In this document: positions 1 to 29,919 of the stretch, one piece after another | Layout of the letters: each line of letters begins with the position of its first letter | Position numbering within the stretch: position 1 is the stretch's first letter | From: a virus | IMG/VR virus record: IMGVR_UViG_3300012919_000025 | Span: 1-29,919 of that record | DNA: 29,919 nt | Strand: one strand, 5' to 3' | The notes under the pieces: model-generated | Databases searched by the model: none | What the model saw: the letters and a program-made list of their open reading frames with translations, nothing else | Told to the model about the DNA's origin: nothing | Translations under genes and position numbers: made by a program

Positions 1-16
1 TAAATAATTAAACAAT

Positions 17-268
17 ATGGACAAAAAAATTATCAATGACTTTTGGAATGAAATAGATAAGCATTTCAAAGCACCAGAACTTAGCTACACAGAAGTAGTT
101 ATTAGATTAATCAAGGACTATCTAAAAAAGCAACCTGATTTTAAGGTAGGCAAGATATCTTGGGACTTAGATACGAAAGGTAGTTACCTAAGTAGTAAAA
201 AGAAACTAGATATAGAGTTTAGAGATTCAGAATATACAATAACTATAACTAAGAATAATGAAAAATAA
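17..268 (+). CDS. Hypothetical protein, 83 aa
   Basis: I do not recognise this protein. It is small and charged, with an amphipathic first half (about residues 1-40) rich in Lys, Asp and aromatic residues, and a beta-like second half with alternating hydrophobic residues. No signal peptide or membrane segment is visible. The ATG follows an A/T-rich leader ending AACAAT, like most starts in this window. Its end overlaps the start of the next small gene by 11 nt, so both probably belong to the same early transcript. It may not be the first gene of its operon, because the window begins only 16 bases upstream. Confidence 0.6.
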   Translation: MDKKIINDFWNEIDKHFKAPELSYTEVVIRLIKDYLKKQPDFKVGKISWDLDTKGSYLSSKKKLDIEFRDSEYTITITKNNEK

Positions 269-437
269 GTTTACTGCATACGAAAAAAAGGTTATTCATA
301 CTGCCTTGTTAAAATTATTAGATAAAATACACGATAATGCTTTAACAAAAGATGATATAGAATATCTAGAAACTAATAATAGATATGTATTGATGAAAGT
401 TATTAATGATATAGAAAGAAATAATTTACTAAAATGA
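258..437 (+). CDS. Hypothetical protein, 59 aa
   Basis: This is a short reading frame filling the otherwise empty gap between the genes at 17-268 and 434-826. It starts at an ATG inside the end of the upstream gene and stops with TGA in an ATGA overlap with the next gene, a typical phage coupling arrangement. The product is mostly helical in appearance: a Lys/Leu-rich helix at about residues 9-24, then a turn and a second helix containing Asp-Asp-Ile-Glu and ending Asn-Asn-Leu-Leu-Lys. It could be a small DNA-binding or regulatory protein, but no family is recognised. The perfect fit to both neighbours is the main support. Confidence 0.55.
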   Translation: MKNKFTAYEKKVIHTALLKLLDKIHDNALTKDDIEYLETNNRYVLMKVINDIERNNLLK

Positions 438-826
438 TTAAAGATATTAATATAAAAGAATTGACTGGTCATTGTGTAGATTTACTTATGAGAACCTACA
501 CAGAGTTAGGTCAGACACCAAGTGAAGATGTTGTATTAATTATGAGCCAGAGTTTAGCTAATGATTTGAAAGAGGACTTTGGCAAATTAGATTTTGAAGA
601 TATAGTACAAGCTTTTAGGCAAGGTGTTAGAAATACAGATAAGTTTTCTATAAATGTTAAGACTTACTATAGTTGGATTAAGGCTCATAGGCAATTAATA
701 TGGTCACAAAATAGAAATGAAAGTGCCTATGTAGATAAAAGACTACACTATAGAAGTAGAAATGGAACTGGTATAAAAAAATTAGGTAATCAAATTAAAC
801 AATTAAAAAATAAAGACAATGAGTAG
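434..826 (+). CDS. Phage early protein, 130 aa, function unknown
   Basis: This is a mainly helical soluble protein. Residues 15-75 read like a family common in early regions of Bacteroidota phages: a helix with acidic residues (LDFEDIVQAFRQGVR), then a Lys-Tyr-Tyr-Ser-Trp motif followed by a basic helix. The C-terminus is strongly basic (Arg/Lys-rich from about residue 100), which suggests nucleic acid contact. It is coupled to its upstream neighbour by ATGA and overlaps the next gene by 8 nt. Its position before SSB-like and recombination genes suggests a replication accessory role, but that is inference from context only. Confidence 0.6.
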   Translation: MIKDINIKELTGHCVDLLMRTYTELGQTPSEDVVLIMSQSLANDLKEDFGKLDFEDIVQAFRQGVRNTDKFSINVKTYYSWIKAHRQLIWSQNRNESAYVDKRLHYRSRNGTGIKKLGNQIKQLKNKDNE

Positions 827-1136
827 AAGTTATCCAATATGGAATAAGGTACAAGCGTGTATATACAAATCATTTACTGGTTGGGGTACAAAGAATACTG
901 GTGAGGTTGAAATATTTGTAGGTAGTAGTGCAAAAAACAGCCACAGTTTTGTTGAACACTGTGTAACTAGAAGAGAAAAAGAATGGAAAGGACAAGAAGT
1001 TATAGTATTTTCTTTTAGTGTTGATGGTAAAGTAGTAAAAAGAACAGTTTTTAGTAAGGACAAGAGAGGTAATGCAAAAGAAAAACTTAAAGTTTTTTCT
1101 AAAATAAATAGTATTAAGTCACTAGAACTGAAATAA
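819..1136 (+). CDS. Hypothetical basic protein, 105 aa
   Basis: No family is recognised. The product is beta-rich and basic (many Lys and Arg), with tryptophans near residues 8, 22 and 56 and two cysteines (about 13 and 49). The first half reads Pro-Ile-Trp...Ser-Phe-Thr-Gly-Trp-Gly-Thr, then alternating strand-like segments. It overlaps the preceding gene by 8 nt, so the ATG is well placed. It is followed by a 47-nt A/T-only gap before the DUF3127-like gene, one of the few spacers in the early region. An open frame on the opposite strand here looks like a shadow and was not accepted. Confidence 0.55.
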   Translation: MSRSYPIWNKVQACIYKSFTGWGTKNTGEVEIFVGSSAKNSHSFVEHCVTRREKEWKGQEVIVFSFSVDGKVVKRTVFSKDKRGNAKEKLKVFSKINSIKSLELK

Positions 1137-1183
1137 TTTTATTATTTTTATCAAAAATTTTATTAACTAAACATTTATAAATT

Positions 1184-1501
1184 ATGTACAAAACAAAAGG
1201 TAGTATCAAAAGTGTATTACAACCATTAACATTTAACAAAAAAGATGGAACAACTGGACACAAAGGTAGATTTATTTTAACTACTGAGGCAAAGTATAAT
1301 CCAGATATCTATTTTGAAGTATTAAATGATAAAGGTATCGGTGATTTTTCTAATATTAATGTAGGAGATATGGTAGAAGTAGAGTTCAACTTATCATCAA
1401 GAGAGTACAATGGTAAGTATTATCACAATGTTAATGCTTGGAAAATAACTAAACAAGAAGTAGTAATGCAAGAGGTTGGAAGTGATGAAGACCCATTTTA
1501 A
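1184..1501 (+). CDS. DUF3127-like, candidate ssDNA-binding protein
   Basis: This 105-aa protein matches the pattern I know for DUF3127, a small OB-fold-like family of Bacteroidota and their phages. It has an N-terminal strand, then FNKKDGTTGHKGRFIL, then a YFEVLNDK segment, a conserved GDMVEVEFNLSSRE motif with NGKYYHNVNAWKI following. The C-terminus ends in an acidic tip, GSDEDPF, closely resembling the protein-interaction tail of bacterial SSB. I infer that it coats single-stranded DNA during replication or recombination, working with the annealing-like protein and nuclease encoded next. The SSB role is inference; family membership rests on recognised motifs. Confidence 0.7.
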   Translation: MYKTKGSIKSVLQPLTFNKKDGTTGHKGRFILTTEAKYNPDIYFEVLNDKGIGDFSNINVGDMVEVEFNLSSREYNGKYYHNVNAWKITKQEVVMQEVGSDEDPF

Positions 1502-1522
1502 TAACTAAAAAAAAAGTAAACA

Positions 1523-1951
1523 ATGAAAAAATTAGAAACTGAAGCAGACAAAATGAATAGAATCTATAAAGAAAATGGATTGGTGAGAGAAGATATTCAC
1601 CAAGACCAAAGAGGATTCAAATTCATTAAGAGAGCTGGTATTGAAAAAATTATTGCAAAACACAATATTCAAATGCAATTAGACCTTAAGGTTTGTAACT
1701 TAGGTTTAGAAAATACTGAAGACCATGTAGTGGTTATGGCTACTGGTAAGAAAGGAGATAATATTGTTCAATCCTTTGGTAGTGCCAATGATAAAACTTG
1801 TAGTCCTTTTCAGAAAGGTATCAAGGTAGAAATGGCAGAAAAAAGAGCCAAAGCAAGAGTAGTATTACAGTTAGTAGATTTGTATTCAGAAGGTATTCAT
1901 TCTGAAGATGAATTTCCAGAAGTAAAACCAGTTAATTCTATAAAGGCCTAG
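1523..1951 (+). CDS. Candidate ssDNA-annealing/recombination protein
   Basis: This 142-aa soluble protein contains the segment VEMAEKRAKARVVLQL at about residues 102-117. This AEKRA-x-AR pattern after an alpha/beta core is shared by Rad52/Sak/ERF-type phage annealing proteins and by a common early protein of Bacteroidota phages. The middle carries beta strands (LDLKVCNLGL, HVVVMATGKKGDNIVQSFGSAN) typical of such a core. It sits between the SSB-like gene and a PD-(D/E)XK nuclease with only 1 nt to the latter. That context fits a two-component exonuclease plus annealase system. The assignment is motif- and neighbour-based, and sequence divergence leaves it uncertain. Confidence 0.45.
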   Translation: MKKLETEADKMNRIYKENGLVREDIHQDQRGFKFIKRAGIEKIIAKHNIQMQLDLKVCNLGLENTEDHVVVMATGKKGDNIVQSFGSANDKTCSPFQKGIKVEMAEKRAKARVVLQLVDLYSEGIHSEDEFPEVKPVNSIKA

Positions 1952-1952
1952 T

Positions 1953-2660
1953 ATGAAAATCAGTCAAGGCTTACTAAGAGATTTCTATGACCCTAATTAT
2001 TGTAGTGTGAAGTGGAATGCTATATATAATTTAGGTCATAGAATTACTCCAACAGATGCTATGATAAATGGATTAGTATTTGAACAAAAGGTTATAGGAG
2101 AAAGTAGAGGTGGTGAAAGATATGAAATACCAAAACTTAAAAATGGTAAAGAATCTAAACGCGAAACTGATATAAATATACTATCTGATTTTGCTAGAAA
2201 GGTTATTAGAAACTTGAAAATAAAGTTTTTAGAAATACAACCAGAGTGGGAGGTAGATAATTTATCAGGTCACCCAGATGCACTTATAGAATGGAAAGGT
2301 GAAAAATGTATTTTAGATTTGAAATATACTGGAACTAAAGAAGATGATTCTTGTAGATATAATCCTTATGCTTGGGGCAAAGATTTAGAATACAAAGATT
2401 TTAGTCAAGCAATTCATTATGTTGAAATGTATTACAGACAACATGGAGAATACTTACCATTTTTCTATTTAGTATTTGGTAAGAGTGGTTGGGTAAAATT
2501 TATCAATGTAGATATAAGTTTACAATCTATGAGTAATCATAGAGAGAAAATAAATCAATTTGAAGTTGATATAGAAAATTTTACACCTCAAAAGTGTGAT
2601 AACTACAGATGTGAATTCTGTAAACATAAAGAACCAAAATTAATAATCGTAAATACTTAA
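1953..2660 (+). CDS. PD-(D/E)XK exonuclease, Cas4/RecB-like
   Basis: This is a 235-aa nuclease candidate. The catalytic signature is visible: GHPDALIEWKGEKCILDLKYTG at about residues 108-129 supplies the Asp and the D-x-K pair, with an upstream helix (NGLVFEQKVIGE) providing the usual Glu, and a later Q-x-x-x-Y-x-x-x-Y helix (SQAIHYVEMYY). One Cys near the N-terminus (PNYC) and three near the C-terminus (C-x4-C-x2-C) resemble the 4Fe-4S arrangement of Cas4 and AddB nucleases. It probably processes DNA ends for recombination with the upstream annealing-like protein. It abuts that gene (1 nt) and the HTH gene (2 nt). Cluster binding is inferred. Confidence 0.65.
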   Translation: MKISQGLLRDFYDPNYCSVKWNAIYNLGHRITPTDAMINGLVFEQKVIGESRGGERYEIPKLKNGKESKRETDINILSDFARKVIRNLKIKFLEIQPEWEVDNLSGHPDALIEWKGEKCILDLKYTGTKEDDSCRYNPYAWGKDLEYKDFSQAIHYVEMYYRQHGEYLPFFYLVFGKSGWVKFINVDISLQSMSNHREKINQFEVDIENFTPQKCDNYRCEFCKHKEPKLIIVNT

Positions 2661-2662
2661 AT

Positions 2663-2968
2663 ATGAGCAACAATATAGAAAAGAATATTAGACAATATGT
2701 GCAAGAAGTTTGTGAAGAAACAATCAAAAAAGGGCCACAAGAAATAAGTTTTGCTGACAAAACCTTTCAAGATTTCCTAAAAGAACACAGAATAAACAAA
2801 AGTTCTTTTGGTAAAATTATAGGAGTTTCAGGAAGTACCATTAACAAATATTATAATGACCCTATGTTACTTAAGGTTTCTCAGGTCTATTACTTATCTT
2901 TAGAGTGTAATAAAGATGTCAGAATACTTATAGATTTGATTTTAGAAAGAAACAAATATGGTTACTAG
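2663..2968 (+). CDS. HTH DNA-binding protein (XRE-like)
   Basis: This 101-aa protein has an apparent helix-turn-helix at about residues 38-62: FLKEHRINKSSFGKIIGVSG followed by a recognition-type helix STINKYYNDP. The spacing matches Cro/C1 (XRE)-type repressors. The N-terminal 35 residues form a charged helix and the C-terminal 30 residues another helix, possibly for dimerisation. It may regulate the early operon in which it lies, but no operator is evident nearby. The next gene begins 11 nt before its stop codon. Confidence 0.55.
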   Translation: MSNNIEKNIRQYVQEVCEETIKKGPQEISFADKTFQDFLKEHRINKSSFGKIIGVSGSTINKYYNDPMLLKVSQVYYLSLECNKDVRILIDLILERNKYGY

Positions 2969-3167
2969 AAAGTATAAAAGAAAGTTAGAAGAATTGACTA
3001 TTGATGAAATAAATCAGATTCATCAATTAATCAGACAAGGTATTAGAATCAAAACTATAATACAAATGATGAACATCAATCAGAAAGCTATTAATAGGCT
3101 TTATGAAAGAGATGAAAAAGGACAACCAATTTATAACTTAAACAATAATAACAATGACACAAATTAA
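2958..3167 (+). CDS. Small HTH-like protein, 69 aa
   Basis: The first 50 residues are basic and helical: LTIDEINQIHQLIRQGIRIKTIIQMMNINQKAINRLYERDEKG reads as a sigma/resolvase-type helix-turn-helix, with the IRIKTIIQMMNINQKAINRL part as the two DNA-contact helices. The last 10 residues are a low-complexity run of Asn, Asp and Thr. It overlaps both neighbours (11 and 14 nt), so it lies in a tight cassette of three consecutive HTH proteins. Its role, regulatory or replication-related, cannot be told from sequence. Confidence 0.5.
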   Translation: MVTRKYKRKLEELTIDEINQIHQLIRQGIRIKTIIQMMNINQKAINRLYERDEKGQPIYNLNNNNNDTN

Positions 3168-4045: not shown

Positions 4046-4046
4046 T

Positions 4047-4892: not shown

Positions 4893-4953
4893 TTAACAAT
4901 ACTTTCTTAATTATTATATTCAGTAAGCAATTACATTCATTAAAATATTTTGT

Positions 4954-4971: not shown

Positions 4972-5376
4972 ATGCTGAAAATAGTAAAAACTTATCATTT
5001 TTATTCAGGTCATAGAAATAAAGAAGCTGGTGAAAAGTGTGGTAGGCTTCATGGCCATACATATGATGTTGAATGTACCTTTAAGTTTACAAACTTAGAC
5101 AATGGTATAACAATGTTGTTTAGTGATATTGATAAAATTACTGAACCAATTGTAAAACAATATGACCATTATTTTATTCTATTTGACCAAGACCCAATTT
5201 GTGAAATGTTAGATTTAGCAAATGAACCATATAAGAAAGTTCCATTTGAAACATCAGCAGAAAATATGGCAATATGGTTGTTTAATCAAATCAGAAAAGA
5301 GTTACCTATTATCAAAATAAGTTTAGCAGAAACAAAATCTAGCAAAGTTATATATGAGCAAGGGCTTGAGGATTAG
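4972..5376 (+). CDS. queD: 6-carboxytetrahydropterin synthase QueD
   Basis: QueD converts 7,8-dihydroneopterin triphosphate to 6-carboxy-5,6,7,8-tetrahydropterin, the second step of 7-deazaguanine synthesis. The 134-aa length fits the family. Zinc ligands are His14 (YSGHRN) and His27 and His29 (RLHGHTY); catalytic residues are Cys23, Asp65 and His66 (YDHYF); Glu120 in LAET is the pterin-anchoring Glu. The segment TSAENMAIWLF is also typical. The gene starts a compact cluster and overlaps queE by 23 nt. All key residues are present, so I expect an active enzyme. A 6-pyruvoyltetrahydropterin synthase role is less likely because of the queE and dpdA neighbours. Confidence 0.9.
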   Translation: MLKIVKTYHFYSGHRNKEAGEKCGRLHGHTYDVECTFKFTNLDNGITMLFSDIDKITEPIVKQYDHYFILFDQDPICEMLDLANEPYKKVPFETSAENMAIWLFNQIRKELPIIKISLAETKSSKVIYEQGLED

Positions 5377-6067
5377 TGAACACTTTTATTCCTTACAAGG
5401 TGAGGGTAAAACAATGGGAATACCTAGTGTGTTCCTAAGACTTCAAGCGTGTAATCTAATGTGTGATGCCAAATGGGTGTGTGATACAATAGATGTTTGG
5501 ATAACTGGCGACCAATATTCAATAGAAGATACATTAGATTTATTTGAAAAACAAGGATATACAGATGTTCTATTCAAAGGTGCACACTTAGTATTAACTG
5601 GTGGTGAACCATTATTACAACAAAAAGCATTAGTAGAATTTTTAGAGGCTTACTATGAAAGGTTTTTTTATTTACCATATGTTGAAGTAGAAACTAATGG
5701 TACAAAAACACCAATACCAGAATTAATCAAATATGTTAATCTATTCAATGTTAGTCCTAAACTATCTAATGCAGGTATGAATGAAAAAAGAAGAGTAAAA
5801 CCTGACACTATAAAAGTATTCAATGAAATAGAAAATAGTATATTCAAATTTGTTATAGCAGACAAAGATGATTACAAAGAATTGTGTGAAACATATATTG
5901 AACCTTTAGATATTAGAAAAGAAAAAATATACCTGATGCCAGCAGCAGATGACCAAGATATGTTAGATGCTAATGCTCAATATGTAGCAAGTGTTTGTAT
6001 AAAGAAATGTTATAACTATTCATCTAGGTTACAAATAGAATTATGGAATAAAACAACTGGTGTATGA
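5354..6067 (+). CDS. queE: 7-carboxy-7-deazaguanine synthase QueE
   Basis: QueE is a radical SAM enzyme that contracts 6-carboxytetrahydropterin to 7-carboxy-7-deazaguanine (CDG). The 237-aa protein has the QueE opening SEHFYSLQGEGKTMG (residues 8-22), the SAM-binding L-T-G-G-E-P motif near residue 82, VEVETNGT near 114 and a N-V-S-P-K-L segment. The cluster cysteines are Cys33, Cys37 and Cys43, giving C-x3-C-x5-C rather than the canonical C-x3-C-x2-C. QueE proteins are known to vary at the third Cys, so activity is still plausible. It overlaps queD and, through ATGA, the small gene that follows. Confidence 0.85.
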   Translation: MSKGLRISEHFYSLQGEGKTMGIPSVFLRLQACNLMCDAKWVCDTIDVWITGDQYSIEDTLDLFEKQGYTDVLFKGAHLVLTGGEPLLQQKALVEFLEAYYERFFYLPYVEVETNGTKTPIPELIKYVNLFNVSPKLSNAGMNEKRRVKPDTIKVFNEIENSIFKFVIADKDDYKELCETYIEPLDIRKEKIYLMPAADDQDMLDANAQYVASVCIKKCYNYSSRLQIELWNKTTGV

Positions 6068-6198
6068 TAGATTTTTTTAGACACTTTTTTGGTTTTTGTG
6101 GTGAACCTCATTTGAACTTCTGGCATATACTTGCAACACCTTTTGGTGGTTATATAATTTATAAATTAAAACAAATAAACAATGACAAAAAAAATTAA
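6064..6198 (+). CDS. Small hydrophobic protein, 44 aa
   Basis: This reading frame fills the gap between queE and the folE fusion. It starts in an ATGA overlap with the queE stop and ends 17 nt inside the next gene. The product begins with Phe-rich residues (MIDFFRHFFGFCGEPHLNFW) and continues with a hydrophobic stretch HILATPFGGYIIYKL, consistent with a short membrane-associated peptide. I have seen no named family. Its placement inside the base-modification operon is notable, but it may simply be a membrane peptide unrelated to the pathway. Confidence 0.45.
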   Translation: MIDFFRHFFGFCGEPHLNFWHILATPFGGYIIYKLKQINNDKKN

Positions 6199-7021
6199 AC
6201 TAGTATGGGAGGATATCTTTGCTAGAGTGCATGATTTACCTAATGGAAAATACTATGGAGTTCCAAGAGGTGGAACAATAGTTGCAGGTTTAACTGGTCA
6301 GGCAGTTGATACTCCTGAAGAGGCTGACTACATAATAGATGACCTAATAGATAGTGGTAGAACAAGAGATAAGTGGAAAGAAAAATATCCTGATAAACCA
6401 TTTGTGGCTTTATATAATAAACAAAATGGTGATAAGTATTTAGGTTGGATTGAGTTTCCTTGGGAAGAAAAAGGTGAAAGAGATGCAGAAGATAGTGTAG
6501 CTAGATTATTACAAGCATTTGGTGAAGACACAAATAGAGAGGGTCTAAGGGAAACACCTAAAAGGTATGTTAAGTTTTTTAAGGAATTTCTAAACCCACC
6601 AGATTGGAAGTGTACGACATTTGATAGTGAGGGATATGATGAAATGATAGTACAAACTAATATACCTTATCATTCTTTATGTGAACATCATATAGCACCA
6701 TTCTTTGGTGTAGGTCATATAGCTTACATACCTGACAAAAGAATAGTTGGTTTAAGTAAATTAGCAAGAACCTTAGAAACATTTTCCAGAAGATTACAAA
6801 ATCAAGAAAGAATAACAAATCAGGTAGCTGAATTTTTACAAAACCAATTGAACCCTAAAGGTGTGGCAGTAGTACTAACTGCAAAACATATGTGTATGGA
6901 AATGAGAGGTGTAAAGAAACACGATACATATACAACCACTTCTAAATTAATTGGCTCATTCAAAGAAGACCACAAGTGCAAAGCAGAGTTCTTACAATAC
7001 ATATCTAATGCAACAAAATAA
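6182..7021 (+). CDS. folE: Phosphoribosyltransferase-like / GTP cyclohydrolase I fusion
   Basis: This 279-aa protein has two parts. Residues about 1-95 form a short type-I phosphoribosyltransferase-like domain: YYGVPRGG (24-31) and the PRPP loop IIDDLIDSGRT (51-61). Residues about 98-279 are GTP cyclohydrolase I: RETPKRYVKFF (123-133), SLCEHHIAPFFGVGHIAYIP, GLSKLARTLETFSRRLQNQE, and AKHMCMEMRG. Zinc ligands Cys167, His170 and Cys238 are all present. FolE turns GTP into dihydroneopterin triphosphate, the QueD substrate. The PRTase part might salvage guanine or a 7-deazaguanine base to a nucleotide, but that is inference. Its stop overlaps the next ATG by 1 nt (TAATG). Confidence 0.85.
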   Translation: MTKKIKLVWEDIFARVHDLPNGKYYGVPRGGTIVAGLTGQAVDTPEEADYIIDDLIDSGRTRDKWKEKYPDKPFVALYNKQNGDKYLGWIEFPWEEKGERDAEDSVARLLQAFGEDTNREGLRETPKRYVKFFKEFLNPPDWKCTTFDSEGYDEMIVQTNIPYHSLCEHHIAPFFGVGHIAYIPDKRIVGLSKLARTLETFSRRLQNQERITNQVAEFLQNQLNPKGVAVVLTAKHMCMEMRGVKKHDTYTTTSKLIGSFKEDHKCKAEFLQYISNATK

Positions 7022-7959
7022 TGGCAATAATTCTAGTACATATTGAACCCTTAGAAGAACGCTATTCAAAGCAATGGTTAGATGACCTAAAGGATAAGGT
7101 TGATGTTATATTAGGTAGTACTGAAGAACAAGTAATAAAAGATGGTGAATTTCTAGATGTTTACGATACTAACTTATTCAAACTTAATCAAGGTATTGAT
7201 ATAATAAATTATGTTAGAACTCATAAACTTACTAAAGATGATACTATATTTTTTCTTGATTTATGGAATCCAGTAGTAACAATGTTAGGTTATGTTAGAG
7301 ATTGTATGAATTTAGATTTCAAAATTGCAGGTATGTTACACGCAGGTACTTGGGATGAATGGGACTTTCTATCAAGAAGTGGTATGGGCAGATGGGCAAA
7401 AGGATTAGAGTACTCAATGATACAAGTGGCTGATAAAGTTATAGTGGCTACTGAATTTCATAAAGAATTAATCAGAAAAGATATAATGGAATTTACTAAT
7501 ATTATTGTAGAAGATTTTCCTATTTTTACAGATGATATAGTTCTTGACAAAAAAAATATAGTTGTATTTCCACACAGACTAGCACCTGAAAAGGATGTAG
7601 ATTATTTTTGGAATGTAGCAAAAGAGTATAAGAAAAAATACAATGATGATACTGTATTTATAGAATCAGTAGGTAATTGTAACAGTAAACAAGACTACTA
7701 TAATTTATTAGCAGAAAGTAAGGTTAGTTTTAGTAGTGCTAAACAAGAAACATTTGGTATTGCAATGTTAGAAAGTTTGAATTTAGGTTGTATTCCAGTA
7801 GTTCCAAATAGATTAAGTTATAGAGAAACTTTACCAGGTTATACTTATAATAATATTGAAGAGGCTATTGAAATGGTTAGAGATGGTATTATGAATTGGA
7901 AAAGGCCTAAAAAATATACTGTAAATAACTTTGACAATATATTGAAAAGATTAAAATGA
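7021..7959 (+). CDS. GT-B glycosyltransferase (GT4-like)
   Basis: This 312-aa protein has a GT-B pattern. The C-terminal half has FPHRLAPEKDVDYFW (183-197), corresponding to the sugar-donor R-x-x-x-x-K region, and ETFGIAMLE (243-251), an intact E-x7-E motif of GT4-type retaining enzymes, followed by SLNLGCIPVVPN. The N-terminal half opens with IILVHIEPL and contains GMLHAGTWDEW and ADKVIVATEFHKE, the acceptor domain. The H-R-x-x-x-E-K-x-x-x-x-F segment and the opening I-E-P recall tRNA-queuosine mannosyltransferase (QTMAN/GTDC1), which glycosylates a 7-deazaguanine. It lies between folE and dpdA with TAATG and ATGA junctions. I infer that it acts on the modified base; another acceptor is possible. 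Confidence 0.7.
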   Translation: MAIILVHIEPLEERYSKQWLDDLKDKVDVILGSTEEQVIKDGEFLDVYDTNLFKLNQGIDIINYVRTHKLTKDDTIFFLDLWNPVVTMLGYVRDCMNLDFKIAGMLHAGTWDEWDFLSRSGMGRWAKGLEYSMIQVADKVIVATEFHKELIRKDIMEFTNIIVEDFPIFTDDIVLDKKNIVVFPHRLAPEKDVDYFWNVAKEYKKKYNDDTVFIESVGNCNSKQDYYNLLAESKVSFSSAKQETFGIAMLESLNLGCIPVVPNRLSYRETLPGYTYNNIEEAIEMVRDGIMNWKRPKKYTVNNFDNILKRLK

Positions 7960-8828
7960 AAATATTTCTAGCTGGTGTTGAGGGCGGTGACCCACAAAAG
8001 ATTAGAGAGTATATAGAATATGCTTTCTATTCATATTATTACCTTAGAAATGGTGATAAGCAGTTAGAGGGTGCTATTGACGCTCACAAAATACTATTCA
8101 TTGATAGTGGTGCACACTCATTCTTCAATGAAAAAAGTGATGAGGGAGTAATGAGTGCTTCATATCACACAAAGAAAACTAAAACAAAAGAAACACCAGA
8201 AGAATATTTTGAAAAATATTTACACTGGATAGTAAAAAATTATAGAAAAATAGATTATTATGCTGAATTAGATATAGGTGAATTAGTAGGACAAGATGTA
8301 GTTTTAGAATGGAGAGAAAGATTAAAAGAAAAAAATGTATATGATAAGTGTGTACCAGTATATCACCCTACTTGTATGACTTGGGACGATTATATTGATA
8401 TGTTAGATGACTGCACTAGTGGTTACATTGCATTAGAGGGAGATAGAGGTAATAGAAAAAGACTTAACTATAATAAACTAATAAAACCTGCATATGAAAG
8501 AGGTATTAAGGTTCACGGTTTTGCTATGACTAAAACAGAAGTACTTAAAAATTATCCTTTCTATTCAGTAGATAGTACAAGTTGGATGCAAAGTGAGATG
8601 TATGGAACAATACCTTTTCACAAAAATGGTAGTATTAAAGCATTAAGATATAGTGATAAAGAAAAATTAATAGAAAAATTAGGTGACCTTGATGTGAATA
8701 TACTATTTGGTGAGGATAAGGCAGTTAGAAGATTATATACAATGAAATTTGGAATAAGAGCTTACAAAGAATACGAACATTTTTATACAAAACTATGGCA
8801 AAAAAGAAACATAAACTGGGATATCTAG
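7956..8828 (+). CDS. dpdA: DpdA-like DNA guanine transglycosylase
   Basis: DpdA proteins are TGT-fold enzymes that swap guanine in DNA for a 7-deazaguanine base. This 290-aa protein shows the motifs: FIDSGAHSFF (48-57, Asp50 corresponds to the TGT general-base Asp in DSGG), YAELDIGELVG (102-112), VPVYHP (133-138), HGFAMT (187-192) and YSVDSTSWMQ (203-212), where Asp206 is a good candidate nucleophile. It lacks the long tRNA-binding C-terminal domain of archaeal TGT. It is joined by ATGA to the glycosyltransferase and overlaps the ParB-like gene by 34 nt. With folE, queD and queE it makes a phage DNA-modification operon. Substrate base is probably CDG. Confidence 0.8.
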   Translation: MKIFLAGVEGGDPQKIREYIEYAFYSYYYLRNGDKQLEGAIDAHKILFIDSGAHSFFNEKSDEGVMSASYHTKKTKTKETPEEYFEKYLHWIVKNYRKIDYYAELDIGELVGQDVVLEWRERLKEKNVYDKCVPVYHPTCMTWDDYIDMLDDCTSGYIALEGDRGNRKRLNYNKLIKPAYERGIKVHGFAMTKTEVLKNYPFYSVDSTSWMQSEMYGTIPFHKNGSIKALRYSDKEKLIEKLGDLDVNILFGEDKAVRRLYTMKFGIRAYKEYEHFYTKLWQKRNINWDI

Positions 8829-9448
8829 ATATAGATGTCAACCAATTAGTAAAAGCTGATTGGAACTATAAAGAAGATGACAAAGAGTTATCTAAAAAAC
8901 TAAAAAAGAATATTGAAGAAGAGGGTATAATTCAAAATCTAATAGTAAGGGAGTTAGGAGATAAGTATGAAGTAGTCAATGGCAACCATAGATTAGATGT
9001 AATGAACGATTTAGGTATCACTAAGGTACATGTATATAACTATGGTAAAATATCTAAGAATAAAGCTATGGAGGTAGCTATTAAGACTAATGAAACTGCT
9101 TTCAAAACTAATGCTCTTAAATTAGGAGAAACCTTTTCTGAATTAACAAAAGAATATGATATAGATTATTTAGCAGATAGTTTACCATTCAAGAAACAAG
9201 AAATAACTAATATGATTGAATTGTTAGAATTTGATTGGACTAAATTTGATGATGATGATGAATTAGATTTAGAAGAACCAGACCCATTCAATCACACAAT
9301 TAAACTAAAAGTAACAAAAGAGGTATATGAAAATTGGATTAACCTTAAAAAAAGGATGTTTGAAATAAATGGATATGACAATGATAGTAAGGTTATAGAG
9401 TTTGCTATTATAGAGGCATTAAATATACCCTTAGAAAGCCTTAAATAA
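8795..9448 (+). CDS. ParB/Srx-like nuclease-domain protein
   Basis: This 217-aa protein has the ParB N-terminal fold: IDVNQLVKADWNYK, then LSKKLKKNIEEEGIIQNLIVRE, then KYEVVNGNHRLDVMNDLGITKVHVYNY, where G-N-H-R corresponds to the ParB box II (G-x-R-R/H-R). An acidic stretch (DDDDELDLEEPDP, about 150-165) separates it from a C-terminal domain that looks like a helical DNA-binding or ribbon module (TIKLKVTKEVYENW...). ParB-like proteins are often found directly before phage terminase genes, as here, where they may help mark or process DNA for packaging. Enzymatic activity cannot be judged. The ATG lies 34 nt inside dpdA. Confidence 0.75.
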   Translation: MAKKKHKLGYLDIDVNQLVKADWNYKEDDKELSKKLKKNIEEEGIIQNLIVRELGDKYEVVNGNHRLDVMNDLGITKVHVYNYGKISKNKAMEVAIKTNETAFKTNALKLGETFSELTKEYDIDYLADSLPFKKQEITNMIELLEFDWTKFDDDDELDLEEPDPFNHTIKLKVTKEVYENWINLKKRMFEINGYDNDSKVIEFAIIEALNIPLESLK

Positions 9449-9465: not shown

Positions 9466-9777
9466 ATGGGAGAATTTCCAAATAAAAAAACACAATTTAG
9501 TAAGACTAATCAGCCTGAAAATAGAGGCAGACCTAAAGGAAGTAGAAATGTAGCTACAGTATTGAAAGAATTATTAGCTACACAAGATAAACAATTAGGT
9601 GGTGATGGTGACTTTGGTAGTCCTTTGGCTAAGATGTTATTGAAGATAGCATTTGATAAGGATAGTTCTAACAATGATAAACTAAAAGCAATAAGAGAGA
9701 TACTTGATAGAGTAGAGGGTAAAGCAGAACAAGTAATAAGTATAAATACAAAACCACCAAGCTGGATAGATGACTAA
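9466..9777 (+). CDS. Candidate terminase small subunit (DUF5681-like N-terminus)
   Basis: This 103-aa protein begins with FSKTNQPENRGRPKGSRN, the DUF5681-type motif seen at the start of many small terminase-like phage proteins. It is followed by a helical region (TVLKELLATQDKQ, LLKIAFDKDSSNNDKLKAIREILDRVEGKAEQ) typical of the family. The N-terminal Arg-Gly-Arg-Pro-Lys-Gly segment could contact DNA in an AT-hook manner. It overlaps the large terminase gene by 8 nt, which strongly suggests partnership in recognising and packaging phage DNA. The very short length is within range for this group. Confidence 0.7.
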   Translation: MGEFPNKKTQFSKTNQPENRGRPKGSRNVATVLKELLATQDKQLGGDGDFGSPLAKMLLKIAFDKDSSNNDKLKAIREILDRVEGKAEQVISINTKPPSWIDD

Positions 9778-10909
9778 TGCTAAACCATATTATGACCTAA
9801 AAAAAAGTAATAAAAGAATAACAATATTACAAGGGGGAACTAGAAGTGGTAAAACATATTCTGTATTATTGGCTTTGATAGAGTTTGCTTGGAAGAATAA
9901 AAACAAAGGATTATATATAACCATTTGTAGAAAAACTTTTCCAGCTTTAAGGGCAAGTAGTATGAGAGATTTCTTTTCTATACTACAGAAAGAAGATTTA
10001 TATAGTGAGGAGTTTCATAACAAATCACAATATACTTATGAATTATATGGCAACACTTTTGAATTTATATCTACTGACCAACCACAAAAGGTTAGAGGTA
10101 GAAAAAGAGATGTGCTATTTATGAATGAAGCTAATGAGTTTTCATTAGAAGATTATACCCAGTTATCATTAAGGACAACATATAAGATTATACTTGATTA
10201 CAACCCTTCAGATGAATTTCATTGGATATATGATAGGTTGATAGAAAGGGATGATTGTGATTTTCATAAATCTACATACTTAGATAATCCATATTTAGAA
10301 GATAGTGTGGTTGAAGAAATAGAAAGGTTAAGAAACCTTGACCCAAACTATTGGAGAATATATGGCTTAGGAGAAAGAGGTGTTGGTATTGCAACAATAT
10401 ATAATCATTGGGAGTATTGTGATACCTTACCAAATAACCCTGATGAAATAATCTATGGACTAGACTTTGGCTATAATAATCCTAGTGCGTTAGTGAGGGT
10501 CTATATAAAAGACCAAGATATATATGCAGAAGAGGTGATGTATAAACAACACTTAACTACTTCTGATTTAATTAATAAACTAAAGACATTTGATTTAGGT
10601 AACAAGACTATTTGGTGTGATGCTGCTGAACCTAAAACTATACACGAAATAGCCAATAGTGGTTTCATAGTTAAGCCAGCAGATAAGAATGTAAAAAAAG
10701 GTATTGATAAATTAAAGAGTGTTAAAATATTTATATCAAAAGAATCAAATAATTTATTAAAAGAAATAAAAACTTATAAATGGAAACAAGATAGAGATGG
10801 TAAAGTGTTAGATGAACCAGTAAAAGTTCACGACCATTTGATGGATGGTTTAAGATATGCAGTATATAATCATCTGAAAACAGATAATAAAATTACATTT
10901 TTTTCATAA
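9770..10909 (+). CDS. terL: Terminase large subunit
   Basis: This 379-aa ATP-driven packaging motor and nuclease has a Walker A motif GGTRSGKT (22-29), a Walker B segment VLFMNEANE (115-123) and a coupling-type motif ILDYNPSDEFHWIYD. The C-terminal RNase H-like nuclease has GLDFGYNNPSALV with the first catalytic Asp, TIWCDAAEPKTI with the second, and DHLMDGLRYAVY near the end with the last. It resembles the PBSX/Terminase_3 group. It packages DNA into the prohead through the portal encoded 16 kb downstream. After its stop there is a 47-nt gap. Confidence 0.93.
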   Translation: MTNAKPYYDLKKSNKRITILQGGTRSGKTYSVLLALIEFAWKNKNKGLYITICRKTFPALRASSMRDFFSILQKEDLYSEEFHNKSQYTYELYGNTFEFISTDQPQKVRGRKRDVLFMNEANEFSLEDYTQLSLRTTYKIILDYNPSDEFHWIYDRLIERDDCDFHKSTYLDNPYLEDSVVEEIERLRNLDPNYWRIYGLGERGVGIATIYNHWEYCDTLPNNPDEIIYGLDFGYNNPSALVRVYIKDQDIYAEEVMYKQHLTTSDLINKLKTFDLGNKTIWCDAAEPKTIHEIANSGFIVKPADKNVKKGIDKLKSVKIFISKESNNLLKEIKTYKWKQDRDGKVLDEPVKVHDHLMDGLRYAVYNHLKTDNKITFFS

Positions 10910-24186: not shown

Positions 24187-25242
24187 ATGGCAGCAGCAGG
24201 AAATGGTATTAATGTAGCATACAATGGTACATATGCAGCTCAAATGTTATTAGAACCAATTTTCAAATCGGATAACATAATGAGCAACTATACAGTATAT
24301 CCAAATGTAAAGTATAAACAAAATGTTTTACTTGCACCAGGATTACAAAAAATAGTAATGGCGAATGGTGGATGTAGTTCAACAGATAACTCTGGTTCTG
24401 GACTTTCAACTTCATTTGATATTACAGATAAAGTAATTACAGTAGCAGATTGCTCTGTAAAAATGTCTCAATGTTGGGATACTTTCTACAATGAAGTGAT
24501 TGTAGAATCATACAAGTCAGGTATTAATATGCCTAACTTAACTGGAACTGAATTAGCAAGAGTAATTGCAGATAGAGTAAGATTAGGTCTTGCAAGAGAT
24601 GTGGTTAGAGTAATGTGGGGAGGTGATACAACTTCTGGTAATGTTACTTATGCTTGGGCAGATGGATTATTCAAGTTAGCTAATGGTAACATAACAACTT
24701 CAGAATTTCAAGCTTCAGCAGGTACTGGTCATACAGTAGTTAATGGAGCATTAGTTGGAACTGATGTTATGTCTTTATTAGAAGAAGTGTTTACTGAAGC
24801 ACCTACTAACCTACAACAAACACCAGCTAGTGAAAAGAAATTATTTGTAACACCAAATATTTACAATGCTTTCTATGGTCAATTAACTTTAGTAGGACAA
24901 ACTGGTGCAGTAGATTATGGACATTCAGAGGCTCAGTCAGGTGTAAATTACACTAAACTAAGATATAGAGGGATTGAAATAGTTCCTATGTATGAGTGGG
25001 ATACTATCCTAACAGATGGTAATGTTGGTTTATTTGCAAGTGGTGGTGTTAGCTATAAGCAAGGAGTTGTTTATGCAGCTAAATCTAACTTAATGATAGG
25101 TTCAGATGTAACTAGCCCAGAGAATCAATTCAAAATGTTCTATGATGAAGTTTCTGATAATATGTACATCAGAAGTTACTTCAAAATGGGATATCAGTAT
25201 GGCTTTGATTCATTAATGCACGCTGGTTTCATAACTAACTAA
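24187..25242 (+). CDS. Major capsid protein (HK97 fold)
   Basis: This 351-aa protein follows the protease-scaffold gene directly and has the composition of HK97-type capsid proteins. There is an N-terminal arm (AAAGNGINVAYNGTYAAQMLLEPIFKSDNIMSNYTVYPNVKYKQNVLLA), a helix ARVIADRVRLGLARDVVRVMWGGD, then a LFVTPNIYNAF segment and a C-terminal beta region (GVVYAAKSNLMIGSDVTSPENQFKMFYDEVSDNMYIRSYFKMGYQYGFDSLM). I rely on genomic position and layout; sequence identity to a named capsid is not claimed. A strong hairpin follows its stop, consistent with high expression. Confidence 0.85.
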   Translation: MAAAGNGINVAYNGTYAAQMLLEPIFKSDNIMSNYTVYPNVKYKQNVLLAPGLQKIVMANGGCSSTDNSGSGLSTSFDITDKVITVADCSVKMSQCWDTFYNEVIVESYKSGINMPNLTGTELARVIADRVRLGLARDVVRVMWGGDTTSGNVTYAWADGLFKLANGNITTSEFQASAGTGHTVVNGALVGTDVMSLLEEVFTEAPTNLQQTPASEKKLFVTPNIYNAFYGQLTLVGQTGAVDYGHSEAQSGVNYTKLRYRGIEIVPMYEWDTILTDGNVGLFASGGVSYKQGVVYAAKSNLMIGSDVTSPENQFKMFYDEVSDNMYIRSYFKMGYQYGFDSLMHAGFITN

Positions 25243-25252
25243 TAATTGAATA

Positions 25253-25272: not shown

Positions 25273-25300
25273 ATATTTACTAACCTTAAAATTAAAAGAT

Positions 25301-25870: not shown

Positions 25871-25879
25871 TTTAATAAA

Positions 25880-25927
25880 GGAGAGAGGTTTTAGACTTGC
25901 ATTTCTGAGACAAGGTATCCTCTCTCC
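25880..25927 (+). other. Long stem-loop in the gap before the portal operon
   Basis: GGAGAGAGG (25880-25888) is the exact reverse complement of CCTCTCTCC (25919-25927). The 30-nt loop holds a short inner helix CTTG/CAAG (25896-25899 and 25911-25914). The 66-nt gap between the tube-like gene and the 86-aa gene is mostly this structure. No T run follows, so it may be a terminator, an RNA processing site or another RNA element rather than a simple terminator. Confidence 0.5.
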
Positions 25928-25936
25928 AATATTAAT

Positions 25937-26197
25937 ATGGCTTGTTGTAACAATAAACAAGAATTGATACCTATATTTGTAGAAATAAATAAATACTTAG
26001 ATATGGCAAAATATGAAGCAAAAAAACAAAGTGGTAGAACAACTTACAATGGTTATCATTTTGTTTGGAGAAAAGCTAGTCAAGAAGAATTGGCCTTTGC
26101 TTATGAAGAGCTAGGTCTAAAAAAATTTGTAAACAAACTAGACAATGAAAAAACAACCAAAAAAACAAAAAACAGAAGTAAGAGTAAAAAAGAATAA
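25937..26197 (+). CDS. Hypothetical protein, 86 aa
   Basis: This small protein begins MACCNNKQELIPIFVEINKYLDM and ends in a run of Lys, Thr, Asn, Arg and Ser. Its centre contains TTYNGYHFVWRKASQEELAFAYEELGLKKFVNKL, an alpha/beta-looking element. The final 53 nt overlap the start of the portal gene in a different frame; both frames encode Lys-rich sequence there. It is not recognised. A structural or head-assembly role is inferred from position just before the portal gene. Confidence 0.55.
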   Translation: MACCNNKQELIPIFVEINKYLDMAKYEAKKQSGRTTYNGYHFVWRKASQEELAFAYEELGLKKFVNKLDNEKTTKKTKNRSKSKKE

Positions 26198-27665
26198 AGA
26201 TAACATTCTATCTTATGGAGTTTTTAATCTTGCAGTTCCTGAACATATTCAAGAACCAAAAGATATAGAAAACATTCCTACTGAATGGATACCTTGGGGA
26301 GATGATAATCTATTTCCACAATATTTAGCAGAGCTAAAAAGACAATCACCAACACACAGAGCAATACTAACACAAAAAACTACCTTTACTGCAGGAAGAG
26401 GTTTCAGTACCAGTGATGAAAATTTAGAAAAATGTTTTCATAAGGTCAATGCTGATAATGAAACTATGAGAGAAGTATGGAAAAAGTTAGTAGATGATTA
26501 CTATGCTTTTGGAAATGCTTTTTTAGAAATAGTATTGTATGATGGTGGTATGAATGTATATCATATTGATGCAACAAAGGTAAGAATAGCAAAAGATAAG
26601 AAAGGTATATACATTAATCCTGATTGGACACAACCTTTTGCAGATATAGATGAATTAGATTACCTATGTTTCTATCCAAATATGATGAATAGTAGAGCAG
26701 TTATACAATTCAAAGATTATGAACCTACTTTCAACTACTATGGTTTACCTGATTACATTGGTAGTTTAGAACATATTGCTATTGATTACGAAATAGGTAA
26801 ATGGAATCATAGTAAATTTAGAAATAGCTTTCAACCAAGTGCGATTATAGAAATCAATGGTGATATGTCGCAAGAAGAGGCTAAGAAGATGGTTAAAGAG
26901 GCACAAAGAAAGTTTTTAGGTGAGGGTAATCAAGGTAAGATAATGTTCATTGTAAAGGGTAGTGGGGACACCACACCAGCTAATGTACAAATTATTAAAG
27001 ACGACCAAGATGGTAGTTGGGACACCTTACAGACCCTTACAGTGCAAGCTATACATACTGCACACAGATGGCAACCTGCTTTAAGTGGTGTAGTATCAGC
27101 AGGTAAAATGAATTCTACTGGTGCTGAAATTAGAATAGCTTATGAAATAGTACAAAATATAGTTGTTAATGAAACAACAGAAGTATTTTTACAAACTATA
27201 TCAGACCTATATGAAAAAATAGGTTACGATACAACTGATTTAGAGGTAATATATGAGCCACCAATTAGTTATCTATCAGATATAAAACCACAAGAGGTTA
27301 TGACTATCAATGAGCAGAGAGAAATATTAGGACAAGAACCAATTGATGGCGGTGATAGATTTTATGCAGAGATAACCAAAGGTGGTGGTGGCTCTGACAA
27401 AGTTGTTGCACCAGTACAAACTAATGAAGAGGGAGAAAGTGTAGAAAACACAAACTCAGAGGCACAAGCTACATTAAGAGGTTCTGTAGGTGGTGTGACT
27501 GGTATATTATCTATACAAGAAAAGGTATCACAAGGGATAACAGAGTACAATTCAGCTATTGCTATATTGAAAACTATTTATGGTTTTACACAAGAAGAGG
27601 CTGAAGCAATACTAGGAACTCCTATACAAGAATTTAGTGATGAACAACAAACAGTAGAAGAATAA
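26145..27665 (+). CDS. Portal protein
   Basis: This 506-aa protein is the ring at the capsid vertex through which DNA passes. The N-terminal region contains SYGVFNLAVPEHIQEP, then WIPWGDDNLFPQYLAELKRQSPTHRAILTQKTTFTAGRGF, a recognisable portal pattern. The core has YYAFGNAFLEIVLYDGG, YHIDATKVRIAKDKKGIYINPDW and a WNHSKFRNSFQPSAIIEINGDMSQEEAKKM clip/stem part. The C-terminal 90 residues are acidic and helical. It starts within the preceding small gene and ends in a TAATG junction with the next gene. Its place downstream of the capsid gene is unusual, since portals usually precede it. Confidence 0.85.
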   Translation: MKKQPKKQKTEVRVKKNKDNILSYGVFNLAVPEHIQEPKDIENIPTEWIPWGDDNLFPQYLAELKRQSPTHRAILTQKTTFTAGRGFSTSDENLEKCFHKVNADNETMREVWKKLVDDYYAFGNAFLEIVLYDGGMNVYHIDATKVRIAKDKKGIYINPDWTQPFADIDELDYLCFYPNMMNSRAVIQFKDYEPTFNYYGLPDYIGSLEHIAIDYEIGKWNHSKFRNSFQPSAIIEINGDMSQEEAKKMVKEAQRKFLGEGNQGKIMFIVKGSGDTTPANVQIIKDDQDGSWDTLQTLTVQAIHTAHRWQPALSGVVSAGKMNSTGAEIRIAYEIVQNIVVNETTEVFLQTISDLYEKIGYDTTDLEVIYEPPISYLSDIKPQEVMTINEQREILGQEPIDGGDRFYAEITKGGGGSDKVVAPVQTNEEGESVENTNSEAQATLRGSVGGVTGILSIQEKVSQGITEYNSAIAILKTIYGFTQEEAEAILGTPIQEFSDEQQTVEE

Positions 27666-28252
27666 TGGCAAATTACAGACAATATATAAACCTGGTTACT
27701 GCACAACAAGTAATTGCTAATGTATTCACAAATGAAAATACTGATGAATATTTAATTACTGATGATTTAATTACTATAACAGAATTAACTCATTTGAAAC
27801 CAGTATTAGGTTTGAAATTTTATGAAGAATTAAAATTACAAAATAATAATGGTACATTAACTGCAGATAATCAAGAACTAATGACATACTTTTTACAACC
27901 TGCATTAGAATGGTTAGTAAGATTTGAAAGTGTCAATGAAATACAAAATAACTCTACAAGTCAAGGTATAGTACAAAACATATCAGATTTTAGTAATCCT
28001 TTGTCGCCACCTCAACTTGCAGATTATGTACAAGATACCTATAGAAAGGCTAAAGTAATGTTAAATGATATGATACATTACCTTAAACACGAAGACCAAA
28101 CTGGTAAGTTTCCAACATACGAACAACATGGCCCTTGTAATAATGATTCGACTTGGAAAAATCATGGATTAATAATGTATGATGATTATCATTTGAGAGA
28201 AAGATTAAGTAGTTATAGGTACTGGAAATATGGGCCGAAGTCAATTTATTAA
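27665..28252 (+). CDS. Head-tail connector-like protein (DUF6712-type)
   Basis: This 195-aa protein follows the portal directly. Its helical composition and the segments MANYRQYINLVTAQQVIANVFTNENTDEYLITDDLITITELTHLKPVLGLKFYEEL and TYFLQPALEWLVRFESVNEIQNNSTSQGIVQNI resemble small adaptor proteins that bind the portal and close the head. I associate this layout with head-tail connector proteins of Bacteroidota phages. The C-terminus has KFPTYEQHGPCNNDSTW. It begins on the TAATG junction with the portal stop and is followed by a 19-nt gap. Confidence 0.6.
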   Translation: MANYRQYINLVTAQQVIANVFTNENTDEYLITDDLITITELTHLKPVLGLKFYEELKLQNNNGTLTADNQELMTYFLQPALEWLVRFESVNEIQNNSTSQGIVQNISDFSNPLSPPQLADYVQDTYRKAKVMLNDMIHYLKHEDQTGKFPTYEQHGPCNNDSTWKNHGLIMYDDYHLRERLSSYRYWKYGPKSIY

Positions 28253-28271
28253 CTAAAAAAAATATAAAAAA

Positions 28272-28643
28272 ATGAGTCAAGAACCTTTAAGTATGAATTC
28301 ACAAACTGCAGATGTAAAAGCTGCTAGTTTAATGTATGACCAATTAGGAAAATGTGGTGCGGTAGTGATACTGCCAGGAGAAACTTGGACTGCAGCTGAT
28401 GGGTCAGGTGATACAATTAGTAGAATACATATAGTAAATTCAGGTCCAAGTGCAAAAAATGCAACCTTATCTGTAACTAGAACTACTGGTTATAAAAATG
28501 CTAGTAATAATTCATTACAAGGATTAGTAAGTACTTTACAATATACAGATAACACTATAATCTATGGTAATTTTGATAGAGTAGGTGTAGGAGAATTAGA
28601 AGGAGCATTAGTAATAGGATATTTAGATTGTAATTTAAGTTAA
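28272..28643 (+). CDS. Hypothetical beta-rich protein, 123 aa
   Basis: This small protein is rich in Gly, Ser, Thr and Val and has alternating hydrophobic residues, suggesting beta-sheet. GAVVILPGETWTAADGSGDTISRIHIVNSGPSAKNATLSVTRTTG at about residues 28-73 is typical of a small virion-associated immunoglobulin-like or decoration domain. The final segment ELEGALVIGYLDCNLS is hydrophobic. It lies between the connector and a Cys-rich structural protein. A head-decoration function is inferred and uncertain. Confidence 0.5.
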   Translation: MSQEPLSMNSQTADVKAASLMYDQLGKCGAVVILPGETWTAADGSGDTISRIHIVNSGPSAKNATLSVTRTTGYKNASNNSLQGLVSTLQYTDNTIIYGNFDRVGVGELEGALVIGYLDCNLS

Positions 28644-28644
28644 T

Positions 28645-29298
28645 ATGCCTTGTTTACAATGTGATAATGGTAAATGGAAGTTTGGAAAAACTGGTGAATG
28701 CAAATACACTAGTAAAGAAACTTGTGAGGCTGACAATGCTAGTTACTATGCTGAAACCTATAATGACTATCCTGAATCTGCAAGTAATAATGCTTGTAAG
28801 GTTTTGAAATGGAGAGAAGAACACGGTGATGAGGTTAAAGGAATGACAAGGGTAGGTTGGAATAGAGCAAACCAGCTCTGCTCAAAAGAAAAGTTGAGTA
28901 GAAGAACGATTGCAAGAATGGCTAGTTTCAAAAGACACGAAAAGAATGCAGAGGTTTCAGAAGAAAACAAAGCTACACCTTGGAAAGACGCAGGATATGT
29001 AGCTTGGCTAGGTTGGGGAGGTACAAGTGGTGTTAATTGGGCTATAAAAAAATTAGAATCAATTGACAAAAAGAAGAATGATGCTAGTCACGATTTGCAT
29101 ATTGACCTTACTAATGAAATGATGGAACAATTGCACGATACTGGTGAATTAGAAACATTAGTAGAAGAAGATGGTAAGGAAATGTTTGTAAAAATAACAT
29201 TTGGTAGAGAAGATATAAATGATATAATAAATGCTAGTAACTATTTTACTAGAAAGTATAAAAATTATTTAGAAAAGTATGGCTATAAACGAACATAA
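28645..29298 (+). CDS. Head-morphogenesis accessory protein, 217 aa
   Basis: The N-terminus PCLQCDNGKWKFGKTGECKYTSKETCEADN holds four Cys residues in a pattern common at the start of phage head proteins. The middle (about 42-95) has NNACKVLKWREEHGDEVKGMTRVGWNRANQLCSKEKLSRRTIARMASFKRHEKN, the 'x-R-A-x-x-L-x-x-x-x-x-L-S-x-x-T-I-x-R-M-x-x-F-x-x-R-H' element known from prohead proteases and related head proteins. A W-L-G-W-G-G motif follows (PWKDAGYVAWLGWGGTSGVNWA). The C-terminal 70 residues are acidic then helical. It may act in capsid maturation or as a virion component; I see no protease catalytic triad. It overlaps the next gene by 20 nt. Confidence 0.55.
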   Translation: MPCLQCDNGKWKFGKTGECKYTSKETCEADNASYYAETYNDYPESASNNACKVLKWREEHGDEVKGMTRVGWNRANQLCSKEKLSRRTIARMASFKRHEKNAEVSEENKATPWKDAGYVAWLGWGGTSGVNWAIKKLESIDKKKNDASHDLHIDLTNEMMEQLHDTGELETLVEEDGKEMFVKITFGREDINDIINASNYFTRKYKNYLEKYGYKRT

Positions 29299-29914
29299 AA
29301 ATTTAGATGGTGATAACTTGCATGTACCTAAAGGTTTTACTGATGCAGTAAATAATAGTGTGTGTACAAAAAATGGTTCAGGTGCAGTAGAATGGAAACC
29401 TATTGCTACAACTGGTTTTGGTCAAAGAATTGTGTTGGACTTTAGTGGTTATGCAACTGCACTAATTAATCTTTACAAATATCCAGTACAACAATCTTCA
29501 AACAACGCACCATTTAATTTGAATACAGGTTATGGTAGTGCTACAATTGGTTCAAACACACAAGGTAGAAGTGCATTGAATCAAAGAGTTTGTAAAGTTA
29601 TGGCTACAAATGTTACTTGTGCAGTATGGAAAGGATGGATAACAAGTTCTGGTACTGATAACATTACATTAGCTTTAGTTAAATGGACACCTACTGATAA
29701 TGAAAGTAGTGCCTTGACTGCAACTGAAATTGGTAGTGTAACAGTAACACCAAATGGTTCAAGTGTAACAAGAGCATTTGAAGTAACTTCATTTACCAAC
29801 GCTGATTTAACTGCAGGTGATATTGTTATGCCTATGATAAAAGCTGCAACAGAAAGTGAAGAGGGAGTAACTGCTTATTTTAATAGTTCAATACAATTAG
29901 TAATAACAAGTTAA
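29279..29914 (+). CDS. Virion structural (fibre/appendage-like) protein, 211 aa
   Basis: The protein begins INEHKNLDGDNLHVPKGFTDAVNNSVCTKNGSGAVEWKPI, a start similar to some phage fibre or head-appendage proteins, where H-x-P-K-G-F-x-x-A and a W precede a beta region. The rest is low in charge, rich in Thr, Ser, Asn, Ala and Val, and strand-like (LDFSGYATALINLY, VTCAVWKGWITSSGTDNITLALVKW). It lies 20 nt inside the previous gene and stops at 29914, so it is complete within the window. The specific role is not decidable. Confidence 0.55.
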   Translation: MAINEHKNLDGDNLHVPKGFTDAVNNSVCTKNGSGAVEWKPIATTGFGQRIVLDFSGYATALINLYKYPVQQSSNNAPFNLNTGYGSATIGSNTQGRSALNQRVCKVMATNVTCAVWKGWITSSGTDNITLALVKWTPTDNESSALTATEIGSVTVTPNGSSVTRAFEVTSFTNADLTAGDIVMPMIKAATESEEGVTAYFNSSIQLVITS

Positions 29915-29919
29915 AAAAA

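Follow-up and report, generated by a model that had tools for sequence, protein, structure and literature searches.

Loss of GATC from a phage contig carrying deazaguanine genes and from most of its relatives

Results

GATC is absent and codon choice compensates

The 29,919-base contig IMGVR_UViG_3300012919_000025, an IMG/VR virus record analysed here over its whole length (the window), belongs to a tailed phage with a PBSX-family terminase, a portal-like protein and a module of deazaguanine genes, and it lacks the palindrome GATC altogether. We consider it probable, at roughly 0.78, that this gap results from restriction-site elimination, driven by Bacteroidota hosts whose systems cut GATC. 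An initial annotation of the window had reported no GATC where dozens would be expected, and computation agrees on both points: the count is 0, against Markov expectations of 79 (order 0, base composition), 50 (order 1) and 54.6 (order 2), or 66 when both strands are pooled. We also applied a codon-shuffle null, in which the codons of each amino acid are redealt so that the proteins and overall codon usage are kept, to 42 hand-chosen open reading frames (ORFs) spanning 29,313 bases. The 500 shuffles gave 59.1 ± 5.2 GATC, the lowest of them 45.

The codons themselves carry the signature of this loss. Before C, Asp is encoded by GAC in all 48 cases and never by GAT, whereas elsewhere GAT (478) far outnumbers GAC (75; total 553). 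After G, Ile never uses ATC (0/72, compared with 57/605 elsewhere), and Ser following a codon that ends in GA is always AGY (20/20), against 294 AGY and 273 TCN (294/567) at other positions. Since these codons switch only where GATC would arise, the absence is maintained through synonymous codon choice. With site elimination defined as an observed/expected ratio below 0.1 at 15 or more expected sites, the thresholds of PMC6286503 (the papers cited here by PMC number are drawn on in excerpt), the window falls under the limit both for Markov expectations of 50–66 and for the 59.1 of the codon shuffle, and it shows synonymous compensation at Asp, Ile and Ser codons. Such compensation also argues against a sequencing or library artefact, for example digestion with a GATC-cutting enzyme before sequencing, an idea that the metagenomic origin of the window and its close relatives might encourage. 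Contigs of the same datasets keep GATC (observed/expected, here and below, 75/57 in L010 versus 8/62 in L107; 20/46 in L076 versus 0/13 in L098; 19/18 in L058 versus 0/8 in L111), and with normal GATC in these neighbours an artefact is excluded for practical purposes.

Other words are purged as well

The initial annotation held the gap to be specific to GATC, which is wrong. Under the same codon-shuffle null CATG (14/58), ACGT (0/27) and TCGA (1/24) are depleted, as are the longer words GGNNCC (0/12), GTMKAC (0/17), CCTGT/ACAGG (1/44), CTGTC/GACAG (1/16) and CCTTC/GAAGG (10/33). GTAC, TGCA and GGCC are unreduced or hardly so, and AGCT and CTAG are mildly down. Many words were scanned before the final set was chosen, which introduces a selection effect for the weaker ones; the depletion of GATC, CATG, ACGT, TCGA and CCTGT lies far beyond it. 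CCTGT/ACAGG, an asymmetric five-base word, occurs once in the window where 44 are expected, and it is not purged in the relatives. CpG is also low (rho 0.15), but we do not count it as one more purged word because low CpG is common in the low-GC Flavobacteriales samples described below.

This list bears on MutH-type mismatch-repair nicking of unmethylated GATC, as proposed for enterophages. PMC4687349 names MutH as a cause of GATC avoidance. Such nicking would not, however, purge CATG, ACGT, TCGA or CCTGT, and we regard it as extremely unlikely here. To our knowledge MutH is confined to other bacteria; no search for it was made.

The gap is a trait of the phage lineage

Testing relatives for the same gap showed that it is a lineage trait. 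The putative major capsid protein matched 30 viral contigs at 40–71% identity; its name is inferred from gene position and a weak match to XkdG, and its gene was used for a tree of 30 rows, the window and 29 relatives, with the 2.2-kb contig L101 (3 GATC against 6 expected by a Markov model) excluded. Expectations for the relatives rest on automatic ORF calls. GATC stands below 0.1 of expectation in 24 of the 30 rows and at exactly 0 in 22, among relatives that include long contigs of 37,064 and 39,460 bases (0/77 and 1/70). The six rows at or above 0.1 are L082 (2/11), L105 (2/15), L107 (8/54), L108 (2/19), L109 (2/10) and L110 (16/31), and the tree requires at least 4 changes of GATC state. 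TCGA is low across most of these relatives. AGCT, by contrast, falls below 0.1 in L095, L100, L102–L104 and L106–L109, is low in L105 (3/16) and is normal elsewhere, the extremes being 0/99 in L107 and 126/132 in L097; its loss in a subset only indicates that different branches purged different sites.

Relatives of the terminase are mixed in GATC content, and one, L002, has 0/34. CpG reaches 0.04 of expectation in L002:1-9018 and TpA 0.35, and TTAA, CTAG and GTAC are almost missing there. In L001:1-5686, another terminase relative, CTAG, GTAC, AGCT, ACGT and TCGA are all at 0 while GATC is normal.

A nuclease encoded by the lineage itself could in principle attack host DNA at GATC, the phage's own genome being kept free of the site. 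The contig is only part of a genome, its genes include NinG and a candidate Cas4-like nuclease (1953–2660), and several of its ORFs match no family. No restriction-nuclease family was matched among the window ORFs scanned, however, NinG and the Cas4-like gene were not found in five longer relatives that have the gap, and the branches purged different words, all of which makes self-avoidance quite unlikely. A phage Dam-family gene is not favoured as the main cause either: no D12/Dam-family methyltransferase gene was found in the 33 viral records including the window, many of them fragments, the search covering that family among methyltransferases.

The deazaguanine module does not account for the gap

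The initial annotation placed the avoidance alongside a deazaguanine modification. The genes are indeed present, the modification itself being predicted from them, and the features used here are as follows.

4972–5376, + strand: QueD-like 6-carboxytetrahydropterin synthase (PTPS Pfam 5e-23; NCBIfam QueD 7e-19, under the model cut-off)
5354–6067, + strand: QueE-like radical SAM protein (top NCBIfam models QueE, 4e-20, all under cut-off; Fer4_12)
6182–7021, + strand: FolE, GTP cyclohydrolase I (Pfam 7e-65), with an N-terminal phosphoribosyltransferase-like part (weak match)
7021–7959, + strand: glycosyltransferase-like protein between FolE and DpdA (Glycos_transf_1 9e-9), present in the L113 module too
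7956–8828, + strand: DpdA-like protein, TGT-type transglycosylase (phrog_887 5e-32; 74% identity to L113)
8795–9448, + strand: ParB-like protein, overlapping DpdA (ParB_N 6e-8; phrog_723)
9770–10909, + strand: terminase large subunit, PBSX family (TIGR01547 1e-43)
24187–25242, + strand: putative major capsid protein (30 viral relatives; weak match to capsid-type XkdG)
26145–27665, + strand: portal protein (TIGR01540 5e-21, under cut-off)

The first six form one gene run (4972–9448) that holds the DpdA, FolE, QueD and QueE set, the QueD and QueE matches falling short of the NCBIfam cut-offs; QueC was not recognised among the window ORFs scanned. The DpdA-like protein has no Pfam or NCBIfam match, and its identity to named phages is 26–41% among the 30 matches listed of 43 records. 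The sole near relative found for it in viral contigs lies in L113 within the same gene run, whose proteins share 57–74% identity with those of the window (QueE 26%), whereas the L113 terminase differs from that of the window (28% identity). Most structural genes of the window have counterparts in the longer relatives; the module and terminase do not. Neither a megablast of the window against phages nor a search with its tail protein gave a match.

The glycosyltransferase-like gene is sandwiched between FolE and DpdA in both copies (7021–7959; L113:2892-3836), and its product might act on the predicted modified base. The ParB-like gene (8795–9448) adjoins DpdA in the window, in L113 and in phages phiFN37 and Nadezda (L243, L245), making its product a possible DNA-targeting partner of DpdA.

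Both module copies are themselves free of GATC, with 0 against 9.8 ± 2.1 expected in the window and 0 against 6.5 ± 1.8 in L113, and none of 1,000 codon shuffles of either reached zero. As the two copies have diverged, selection against GATC probably continued while the genes were present, and the module has not visibly relaxed it.

Could the modification instead have caused the gap, for example through a harmful DpdA exchange at GATC? The window, L113, Bacteroides phage BS162P1 (0/81) and a faecal clone (8/74), all with DpdA-like genes, are GATC-poor, the BS162P1 match being weak (28.6%, 3e-7, annotated as hypothetical). FolE was not detected, however, in the 32 other viral records, among them the 37- and 39-kb relatives with the same gap (0/77, 1/70), and of 15 records searched for QueD the window and L113 alone gave a match; because many loci are fragments, the absence of FolE or DpdA applies to the sequence in hand. 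We also examined nine DpdA-type phage records chosen from 43, most of them read in part. In the seven that infect Fusobacterium, Streptomyces, Mycobacterium, Rhizobium, Acinetobacter, Pseudomonas and Vibrio, GATC lies at 0.36–1.12 of expectation and no 4-base palindrome falls below 0.2. BS162P3, which infects the same strain as BS162P1 (Bacteroides salyersiae BSC162), has GATC 0/68 and is absent from the 30 DpdA matches listed of 43, the organism tally leaving room for one Bacteroides record; both cultured phages are GATC-free in the parts read. Thus the gap is not confined to module phages, relatives without detected FolE sharing it and DpdA-type phages of other phyla lacking it, and the deazaguanine module is rejected as its main cause, modification in that role being very improbable. 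Since DpdA phages elsewhere keep GATC and the BSC162 pair is without it, the trait follows host background more than the module.

Candidate hosts and GATC-acting enzymes

Other Bacteroidota phages vary widely in GATC (Bacteroides 2/42, 61/105, 54/90 and 65/81; Flavobacterium 22/74), and within one Bacteroides species phages of two strains have 0 and 65/81. Capsid alignment against genome contigs found no relative and hence no host, and a terminase scan gave 5 relatives at 45–53%, too distant for naming one. We sampled Flavobacteriales because a Winogradskyella metagenome-assembled genome (MAG; L135) has a distant terminase relative. Of 395 genomes, 4 had a DpnII-family match over cut-off. Two of these matches are clear and full-length, and both full-length genes adjoin genes for a Dam-type and a second methyltransferase, as in DpnII operons. 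DpnI-family matches occurred in 5 of 296 genomes, and 72 of the 296 had a D12 methyltransferase match over cut-off. NlaIII (1/296) and AccI (3/296) family matches over cut-off show just that candidate CATG and GTMKAC enzymes exist in the order. The survey of Dam-like and DpnII/MboI-type systems thus yielded candidates, if rare ones, and no link to a host of this phage. As side observations, the apparently viral 4.1-kb contig L214 (G303:C97) has GATC 0/11 and its MAG carries a D12 methyltransferase gene, and two D12 matches contain in-frame TGA codons (5 in G088:C3:71763-72416, 6 in G154:C15:148993-149616), perhaps reflecting elements that recode TGA.

The phage might merely share the composition of a GATC-poor host through common mutation bias or amelioration, with no nuclease selection on the phage. 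One such chromosome exists: in 388 kb of the 1.7-Mb Flavobacteriales chromosome G048 (L162, L174–L177, L226–L241) GATC stands at 57 against 1,232 expected, and low CpG is common to the phage and the low-GC samples. Median GATC in Flavobacteriales chromosomes is nonetheless 0.74 (n=20) and 0.65 (n=40), in non-random samples of which the larger drew partly on D12 match lists and small genomes, three of the G048 family, and the smaller includes two genomes taken for their DpnII gene. The GC content of G048 (0.40–0.43) also differs from that of the phage (0.31), and the loss of AGCT in a subset of the lineage, like the spread from 0 to 65/81 within one Bacteroides species, fits acquired avoidance better. 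Inherited composition is therefore improbable.

G048 is not linked to the phage. In the same 388 kb GCGC is at 26 against 510 (0.05) and TCGA at 0.21, and its few GATC are clustered, 24 of them within one 20-kb piece. It gave no D12 methyltransferase, DpnII or DpnI match, and a motif scan of those 388 kb (∼23% of the genome) returned two matches, neither a convincing methyltransferase. Two of three members of its family sampled are low in GATC (5/65, 2/47). Across the family of four, AGATCT counts are 20, 37, 14 and 234, and those of the reversed word 834, 302, 9 and 3.

Discussion

We propose that the ancestors of this phage multiplied over a long period in Bacteroidota hosts bearing GATC-acting nucleases, which may have been of the DpnII/MboI type, cutting unmethylated GATC, or of the DpnI type, cutting the methylated site. 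Each GATC would have been a potentially lethal cut, so that all were removed by synonymous changes; sites of other enzymes would have been purged also, partly at other times, and the deazaguanine module would have entered the window's branch without ending the selection. Several lines of evidence favour this reading. GATC is at 0 against the 59 expected when proteins and codon usage are kept constant, and below 0.1 in 24 of the 30 rows of the capsid tree; the purged words, which vary from branch to branch, are sites of known Type II enzymes; both phages of one Bacteroides strain lack GATC; operons comprising a Dam-type methyltransferase, a DpnII nuclease and a second methyltransferase exist in Flavobacteriales; and elimination of sites is a documented phage strategy in which GATC is a frequent target (PMC6286503). 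Selection, as the initial annotation proposed, is thus well supported, and a host system is its most likely cause.

Some observations weigh against a host nuclease as the agent. No host was found for the lineage, and DpnII (4/395) and DpnI (5/296) are uncommon for a pressure acting across a whole lineage, unless enzymes of other families are responsible. GATC is retained in L110 (16/31) and L107 (8/54) and in the terminase relative L001 (26/27). Moreover, were the DNA modified, it might escape cutting by a host enzyme, and avoidance would then be hard to account for.

One tentative answer, which we hold to be possible though less than even, is that in Bacteroidota phages deazaguanine modification fails to shield GATC, and that modification and elimination are complementary layers, the second covering what base modification cannot. 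Alternatively, the DNA may be unmodified or only partly modified, or the pressure may come from hosts encountered in other conditions. Phage 9g offers a precedent for incomplete protection: of the enzymes tried on its deoxyarchaeosine-containing DNA, 71% were resisted, while TaqI and RsaI cut it completely (PMC5567051), so modification of this type can be partial protection.

The phenomenon is of a known kind, and its useful part is the dissociation of the deazaguanine module from site avoidance. The phage lets two anti-restriction strategies be compared in nature within one genome, and suggests that site avoidance may still be needed by a phage that has deazaguanine genes. BS162P1, with its DpdA-like gene, and BS162P3, with none detected, are both GATC-free in the parts read and put this question within reach of bench tests. 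The list of purged sites is, in addition, a fingerprint of the restriction systems met by an uncultured lineage, and could assist in identifying the host.

Among known systems the closest are the prokaryotic viruses surveyed by Rusinov et al. 2018 (PMC6286503), in which GATC is among the avoided sites and lies below expectation in 46 of 46 phages whose hosts encode a methyl-directed enzyme. The window resembles these phages in having lost a short Type II palindrome almost entirely, and differs in its deazaguanine genes and in the purging of several sites together. GATC avoidance in bacterial chromosomes (PMC4687349) concerns the same word and the same inferred cause, there in host genomes and here in a virus lineage. 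In the Bacteroides fragilis group, five species have each yielded one or more isolates with GATC methylation (PMC10333322), and DpnII/MboI-type systems, with complete operons in two Flavobacteriales genomes unlinked to the phage, would supply the pressure. We found no report of GATC elimination in a deazaguanine phage in the open-licence literature. With phage 9g (PMC5567051) and the phages of Hutinet et al. 2019 (PMC6884629) the window shares the QueD–QueE–FolE–DpdA set, though it differs from them in having no recognised QueC; and whereas 9g merely misses some six-base sites, termed possibly coincidental (PMC5567051), here a four-base word is wholly purged.

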